From the NCBI RefSeq assembly GCF_014698755.1, contig NZ_JACJTO010000009.1, positions 1 through 64,000 on the forward strand: 64,000 nucleotides of DNA, in the 5' to 3' direction. Positions within the stretch are counted from its first letter, which is position 1. Every line of letters starts with the position of its first letter. This stretch comes from Aphanizomenon flos-aquae FACHB-1287. Lineage in GTDB: Bacteria > Cyanobacteriota > Cyanobacteriia > Cyanobacteriales > Nostocaceae. Shown here one piece after another: positions 1,196-1,525 of this stretch. A program made the position numbers and the translations under genes. The notes under the pieces were generated by a model, which saw only the letters and a program-made list of their open reading frames with translations, did not search any database and had not been told where the DNA came from.

Positions 1196-1276
1196 GTTTC
1201 AACACCCCTCCCGGAGTCGGGCGGGTTGAAATGCGTTAGTGCAAAAATACAAGAAAATATTTAGGTGGGTTGAAAG
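1196..1276 (+). CRISPR. minimal V-K CRISPR array: one full repeat, one spacer, one truncated repeat
   Basis: A 37-base repeat (1196-1232) starts GTTTCAACACCCCTCCCGG and ends GCGGGTTGAAAT; its self-complementary arms GTTTCAAC and GTTGAAA flank the GC-rich core typical of V-K repeats. The last base differs from the usual G. After a spacer of about 30 bases (1233-1262) comes a 14-base 3' remnant of a repeat, AGGTGGGTTGAAAG (1263-1276). Truncated repeats of this kind precede the delocalised homing guide in V-K elements. Confidence 0.88.
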
Positions 1277-1301
1277 ATCAGTAGGTCGTGAGTTTAACTC
1301 T
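1277..1301 (+). ncRNA. delocalised homing guide targeting the adjacent tRNA-Thr
   Basis: Directly after the truncated repeat lies ATCAGTAGGTCGTGAGTT, identical over 18 bases to the anticodon/T-arm side of the tRNA-Thr gene at 1454-1525. Five of the next seven bases also match. The matching tRNA sequence is preceded by GTA on the minus strand (1492-1490), which satisfies the GTN PAM of Cas12k. Known V-K elements use such short atypical guides to home into tRNA-linked sites. Confidence 0.88.
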
Positions 1302-1330
1302 GAAAACACTATATAAATACAGTGTTGCTT

Positions 1331-1426
1331 GTGACAGTTAGGGACAATTAATTTGTTAACAGTGACACGAATTAGTTAAAAATGACATTAATCTGTTAAC
1401 AGTGACAAATAAATTGTTAATGTACA
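1331..1426 (-). mobile_element. V-K CAST transposon end with phased TnsB-type sites
   Basis: Read on the minus strand from 1426, the end starts TGTACATTAACAATTT and contains four related units whose GTTAA cores (plus strand) start at 1355, 1375, 1395 and 1416, a 20-21 bp spacing. TGTACA tips and repeated TTAACA..TTAATGTCA-like units are the hallmark of V-K ends bound by TnsB. The tip lies 63 bp from the PAM of the tRNA protospacer. The flanking 1427-1431 would be one copy of the target duplication; the partner end is outside the window. Confidence 0.85.
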
Positions 1427-1453
1427 AAAGACAACAACTGTTATATTACTTAA

Positions 1454-1525
1454 AGCCGATGATGAGATTTGAACTCACGACCTACTGATTACGAATCAGT
1501 TGCTCTACCCCTGAGCCACATCGGC
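1454..1525 (-). tRNA. tRNA-Thr (anticodon CGT)
   Basis: The minus strand folds as a cloverleaf: acceptor arms GCCGATG and CATCGGC, D-arm GGCTCAGGGGTAGAGC, anticodon stem ACTGA/TCAGT around loop TTCGTAA (anticodon CGT, codon ACG), and T-arm with GTTCAAATC. No CCA is encoded. The gene is intact and serves as the target of the CAST homing guide; the transposon end lies about 28 bp beyond its 3' end. Confidence 0.95.

Follow-up and report, generated by a model that had tools for sequence, protein, structure and literature searches.

A type V-K CAST very probably homed on a tRNA-Thr gene of Aphanizomenon flos-aquae FACHB-1287 and was later split and decayed, with its right end becoming rewired; this is the best explanation for the locus described here. 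The homing mode is the already published type V-K anchor-spacer kind, found in a rearranged and presumably dead copy. Saito in 2021 and Hsieh and Peters in 2021 reportedly dealt with such V-K homing by anchor spacers, or delocalized crRNAs. The window, which is the whole stretch of DNA analysed, comprises the first 64 kb of contig C85 in a 4.35-Mb genome of 85 contigs (G000).

Guide, target and left end at tRNA-Thr(cgt)

The array side of the element lies close to the start of the window. A full CRISPR repeat (1196-1232, plus strand; Rfam RF01329 CRISPR-DR15 at 36.6 bits, where the cut-off is 36, with the match placed on the minus strand) and a single ordinary spacer (1233-1262, plus) are followed by the truncated repeat R*, AGGTGGGTTGAAAG (1263-1276, plus), an 18-nt homing guide or anchor spacer (1277-1294, plus), and the transposon left end (1295-1426, plus), which finishes in the tip TGTACA (1421-1426, plus). 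The guide is identical at 18 of 18 positions to the minus strand at 1489-1472, i.e. to a protospacer (1472-1489, minus) within the attachment gene tRNA-Thr(cgt) (1453-1526, minus; ARAGORN, Rfam 72 bits). A GTA PAM occupies 1490-1492 (minus), and 63 bp (1427-1489) separate PAM and tip. R*, guide, protospacer, PAM, offset, and tip were read from the letters and recomputed by script. The preliminary description had claimed that guide, PAM, offset, and tip are all readable at this site, and every coordinate checked proved correct.

The left end carries TTAACAGTGACA-like repeats at 1356, 1376, and 1396, two of them exact; when 2 mismatches are allowed, the 12-mer occurs 13 times in the window against an expectation of 7.9, and so is not rare there. 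A putative tracrRNA region with approximate bounds 765-1195 (plus) was placed by its location between cas12k and the array, as in PMC9938897. DNA of the window at 112-1231 is 92% identical to that of Cuspidothrix issatschenkoi CHARLIE-1. The ordinary spacer recurs identically in another genome of the genus (G120), and searches of plasmids and phages gave no believable target for it, the best ten matches of each being at chance level (E 0.4 and 0.6).

PMC9938897 describes V-K left ends that adjoin a tRNA gene and point at it, with a truncated repeat of about 12 nt, an anchor spacer of usually 17 nt, a GTN PAM, and 46-82 nt to the left end (147 in a single exception); the anatomy found here agrees with it. 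In the same source, it is the left end that faces the tRNA, with the CRISPR array on its side of the element. The orientation in the window is therefore canonical, and a reversed insertion, which had been considered on the view that the CRISPR-side end is the 'right end', was rejected. PMC11406308 and PMC10293859 were also consulted. In common with anchor-spacer V-K CASTs, the G000 element has Cas12k, TnsB, TnsC, TniQ, and a CvkR-like regulator, an array and left end beside a tRNA gene and pointing at it, and a truncated repeat, a guide in the 17-18 nt range, a GTN PAM, and an offset within 46-82 nt. Its Tn7-type TnsB, TnsC, and TniQ correspond to Pfam Mu-transpos_C, TniB, and TniQ, its tips are TGT...ACA inverted with repeats (window 1421-1426 and contig C18:10185-10190), and its effector is Cas12k (NCBIfam NF038191 on the C18 half, with the C-terminal part in the window), as a pseudogene. 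Unlike the published elements, this copy is presumably dead, its right end has no matching duplication, and that end adjoins DNA that is the cargo of another CAST in a relative. Among the papers searched, none names both tRNA-Thr and Cas12k.

An 18-mer match within 300 bp on both strands would arise by chance with a probability of about 9e-9 (uniform-base estimate), and the same arrangement is present in CHARLIE-1, G120, and a seven-contig genome of the same family (G472). Both argue strongly against a chance match or an unrelated tRNA repeat. The companion idea, that the flank of the right end is a chimaeric contig, draws on the state of the assembly, many contigs of which are broken at the same insertion sequence, but the junction at the right end lies inside a 69-kb contig and begins at the tip. 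An artefact of either kind is thus extremely improbable.

Further features of the window were noted. hupL is split into an N-part (11373-11954) and a C-part (5204-6289), both on the minus strand (Pfam NiFeSe_Hases), by about 5.16 kb containing a tyrosine recombinase gene (6419-7912, plus; just below the Pfam cut-off), and a 14-bp direct repeat, ACCATATAACTGCT, lies in this region at 6285 and 11443. The whole (5204-11954) resembles the XisC-excised hupL element of heterocyst formers. A c-di-AMP riboswitch (4130-4242, minus; Rfam 64 bits) lies upstream of a universal stress protein gene (3329-3985).

The split element and its right end

Searching G000 with the left end located the second transposon end that the preliminary description expected, on contig C18 (tip at C18:10185-10190). 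The two ends share 85% identity across 46-47 bp, and the tip of the right end (C18:10190) sits upstream of tnsB. The two contigs are linked through cas12k. Its 3' part lies at 113-730 of the window (plus; residues 437-642 of the CHARLIE-1 protein, tblastn with the open CHARLIE-1 Cas12k) and its 5' part at C18:1399-113 (minus; to residue 436 in the same numbering, NCBIfam V_Cas12k 634 bits). One half ends at residue 436 and the other begins at the very next, 437, so that C18 and the window belong to a single element.

The gene is split by an insertion-sequence end at the contig edge (1-112, plus, approximate bounds). This end occurs at 25 places in G000, the window included, with 100% identity over 113-116 bp, and at least 14 of the 25 copies start with the first base of a contig. 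On the facing edge of C18, the 19-base insertion-sequence terminus recurs in inverted form with one base changed (TGATCTCAAACTGCTGTAA against TGATATCAAACTGCTGTAA), and I infer that both edges belong to one inserted copy. Taken with the consecutive residues, the terminus on C18 suggests that the gene was split at this point and that the assembly broke there.

The decay goes further than the split. cas12k has an in-frame TAA at 503-505 of the window, and by comparison with the open CHARLIE-1 proteins, tnsB has no match to residues 23-88 and contains a stop, and tnsC is in three pieces with two frame changes; tniQ is open (167 of 173 residues matched). With cas12k, tnsB, and tnsC broken, the copy is expected to be dead on its own and thus inactive in RNA-guided transposition. 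From cas12k to the right tip, the genes are those for a CvkR-like MerR regulator, NurA-like, HerA-like, DruA, and DUF3800 proteins, and then tniQ, tnsC, and tnsB; the NurA-like gene of this C18 cargo is below the Pfam cut-off. The NurA-like, HerA-like, and DruA genes in the cargo of this CAST (L003:1884-5939) may be a defence island.

The 5-bp duplication at both ends that marks one undisturbed insertion is missing. The preliminary description predicted it from AAAGA at 1427-1431 (plus), the expected left-end copy directly outside the left tip, but the right tip, read in element orientation, is followed by AATTT, and AAAGA has no right-end partner. From C18:10191, the right flank contains a methylase gene (C18:10438-13605) and then a second gene. 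In G114, of the same genus, these two genes are cargo of a V-K CAST at tRNA-Pro(cgg), lying between cvkR and tniQ in the order tRNA-Pro, guide, cas12k, cvkR, methylase, second gene, tniQ, a tnsC piece, and tnsB. In G121, both are flanked on one side by a cas12k piece near tRNA-Arg(ccg) and on the other by pieces of tnsC and tnsB, and in G027 the methylase adjoins the start of cas12k. The junction between the end of cvkR and the methylase is common to G114 and G121 as judged by eye, and homology of G000 to the G114, G121, and G027 flank begins at most 4 bp from the right tip. A second tniQ fragment is found past the methylase in G000, 4.1 kb outside the right end; no left-end-like DNA was found within 600 bp outside that end. 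The right end thus adjoins DNA that is the cargo of another V-K CAST in a relative, which means that the element has been rewired. In a genus-wide search with the outer parts of the window and of C18, the matches listed were scattered over many contigs and repeats, and the left flank's lost partner was not found among them. It therefore goes too far to say that the homing event can be followed through every step at this locus: the partner end has no duplication, its flank is another CAST's cargo in a relative, and three movement genes are broken.

The best explanation runs as follows. Cas12k with its 18-nt guide would have bound tRNA-Thr at the GTA PAM, as indicated by the geometry of the site and by the mechanism of the family, and TnsB, TnsC, and TniQ would have placed the left end beyond the tRNA gene, at 63 bp from the PAM. 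An insertion sequence then split cas12k, and cas12k, tnsB, and tnsC decayed, probably in this order. The right end, now joined to DNA that is a second V-K CAST's cargo in a same-genus genome, was probably rewired when two CASTs stacked at a single attachment site and the transposase then made a deletion beside the right end; the chief alternative route is recombination between two copies. Against the best explanation stands that no duplication ties both ends of the G000 copy.

A nested insertion is a different account of the same junction, and I consider it possible but somewhat unlikely. Here, a V-K element would have inserted untargeted next to the cvkR of an older CAST, within the cargo of that CAST. 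Recombination between the cas12k regions would then have removed the inner left end, so that the resulting hybrid kept the old left end at tRNA-Thr. The right tip lies no more than 4 bp from the cvkR-end/methylase junction seen in G114 and G121, which fits this account, as do cvkR-cas12k DNA with 96% identity between G000 and G114 across 1752 bp and the occurrence of the same guide joined to two different left ends (in the window and in G120). It requires both an untargeted insertion and a recombination, however, and its intermediate was not seen. Neither the rewiring step nor intermediates of either route (stacking plus deletion, or nested insertion plus recombination) were seen among the genomes compared.

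An inversion of the 54 kb from tRNA-Thr to tRNA-Pro (55732-55805), brought about by recombination between CASTs at both genes and swapping their right-end flanks, is very unlikely and was rejected. Its appeal is that G114 has a V-K CAST with the same methylase at tRNA-Pro, and that both tRNAs face outward in the window as in G114. Yet the letters show no CAST end beside tRNA-Pro in the window, and window positions 54000-64000 have no match in the roughly 7.9 kb of the outer tRNA-Thr flank of G114.

Five-bp duplications in native V-K elements

Among 36 cas12k loci in named genomes, 19 have a guide that matches a GTN-preceded target immediately beyond the element, with no more than one mismatch in 17 nt, and 18 of these 19 targets lie inside tRNA genes; several of the other loci are contig fragments. 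For a survey of duplications, 40 family elements with near full-length cas12k on long contigs were hand-picked among the matches listed. A guide match was present in 36 at up to 3 mismatches in 17 nt and in 34 at up to 1; G083, G018, G090a, and G090b had none and were dropped. The set was reduced to 33 by the exclusion of G061b (no tnsB match) and of G121 and G474 (no tnsB N-terminus), and then to 30, as G548c, G491, and G003b fell under a 10/14 tip match. G000 is outside the 30. With survey tips limited to 50-70 bp from the PAM, PAM-to-tip distances range from 54 to 66 (mean 59.8), which the 63 bp of the window fits.

An identical 5-bp duplication is present in 12 of the 30 native elements with both tips recognised and absent in 18; a cross-pair control gave 6 of 870. 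G052 and G497 possibly have imperfect duplications by eye and were counted as having none. A looser count, open to every ACA/TGT pair, found 14 of 33 where 6.9 were expected. In a small check by eye, L054 shares GGTAAC at both ends, while L051 (taken as the same element as G061a), L075, L047, and G000 share no duplication. A partner end without a duplication had been named in the preliminary description as evidence against homing. Taken literally, this is what G000 has, but homing is not refuted by it, because 18 of the 30 native elements likewise have no identical duplication. A literature search on duplications of native V-K or Cas12k elements found no report of such a count, though one may exist.

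In favour of stacking in general, 5 of the 30 elements have a further V-K left-end tip 0-2 bp beyond their right end, 2 of them with a duplication and 3 without. For 13 of the 18 elements without a duplication, no V-K left-end (600 bp examined) or protein match (8 kb) was found outside the right end. These 13, together with the 2 of 5 stacked elements that retain a duplication, leave most missing duplications unexplained by stacking. Duplications do occur and can be recognised; they are often absent, and stacking accounts for some cases only. One stacked pair lies at tRNA-Val in Richelia sinica FACHB-800 (L048:3570-3760, taken as the same element as G055): an older left end with its own guide is 2 bp from the right end of the newer element, whose left end faces the tRNA.

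Guide tails (positions 19-32) match their targets at 61 of 182 positions against a re-paired mean of 47 (P about 0.012). This test was chosen post hoc, includes related guides among its 13 pairs and one locus (L057) that is not at an ARAGORN tRNA, and is not relied on.

tRNA-Thr(cgt) as a recurrent attachment site

Flanks of tRNA-Thr(cgt) of up to 1.56 kb were surveyed in 16 genomes of the genus, with shorter flanks in G123 and G124. V-K material is present beside the gene in 7 of the 16 (G000, G120, G118, G127, G123, G125, and G099), where G118, G127, and G123 were counted mainly on a 30-31 bp left-end match and G125 and G099 on scraps of cvkR and cas12k; G121 has a weak 43-bp match only and was not counted. 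The guide itself was found within the genus only in G000 and G120 (searches over 14 and 16 genomes) and outside it in CHARLIE-1 and G472. The suggested search for such a guide beside tRNA-Thr elsewhere succeeded in G120, in G472 (18/18 to its own tRNA), and in CHARLIE-1 (one mismatch to its tRNA). Use of the same tRNA at similar offsets supports the best explanation. The offsets are 63 bp in the window, G472, and G120 and 64 bp in G118, with differing flanks, and 52 bp in CHARLIE-1; those of G120 and G118 were counted by eye, and the G120 value assumes a tip ...GTGACA. To the left of tRNA-Thr(cgt) in G122 and G124 (L135 and L136), ends with repeats like GCGACATTAATTTGCGAA were seen by eye, whose tips (GCGAATGTACA and GCGAACGTACA) come to within a few bases of tRNA-Thr. 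These ends have the look of a further Tn7-like end at this gene.

The C. issatschenkoi CHARLIE-1 element (NZ_PGEM01000038.1) occupies the same site, with R* and guide each one base different and main protein segments 88-97% identical to those of G000, and is likewise without a matching duplication. Unlike in G000, its cas12k, tnsB, tnsC, and tniQ are open, and it has no DNA match to the G000 CAST cargo at the same place. Its guide mismatch, at position 15, and its 52-bp offset set it apart further, and both count against the best explanation. The G472 element shares the site, the 63-bp offset, and the lack of an identical duplication, but has an open cas12k and a full-length tnsB match. Position 15 of guide and tRNA reads A/A in the window and G/G in G472, and G/A in both CHARLIE-1 and G120. 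On these bases, guides could follow tRNA alleles, but 2 of the 4 pairs are unmatched.

In an order-wide search, the pattern for the tRNA-Thr(cgt) guide plus its tRNA-Thr(tgt) sister was found in 5 of 388 genomes. G035 and G013 keep an orphan tRNA-Thr(tgt) guide and a left end (L143:14830-15010 and L144:14560-14730), with no cas12k, tnsB, tnsC, or tniQ match in the 16.5-kb stretch around each; G035 has cas12k elsewhere in its genome. These remnants are scars. They also count against the best explanation, since the two genomes keep the sister guide and left end without a CAST protein in the fetched stretch. Relatives carrying the guide without a CAST had been proposed as a refutation, and such relatives exist for the sister guide only, as the scars in these two genomes.

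More broadly, most native V-K CASTs might lose a matched duplication by stacking and by intramolecular or recombinational loss or exchange, TnsA and a resolvase being reported as absent, with guides following the tRNA allele by single-base changes. I put this forward as a tentative and rather unlikely reading; it is weakened by the 13 of 18 duplication-free elements that have no V-K material beyond their right end. What this locus and the survey add is a recurrent tRNA-Thr(cgt) site, a rewired right end, and a count of duplications. With duplications in 12 of 30 elements against 18 of 30 without, and stacked ends in 5 of 30, the question becomes approachable by comparative genomics.
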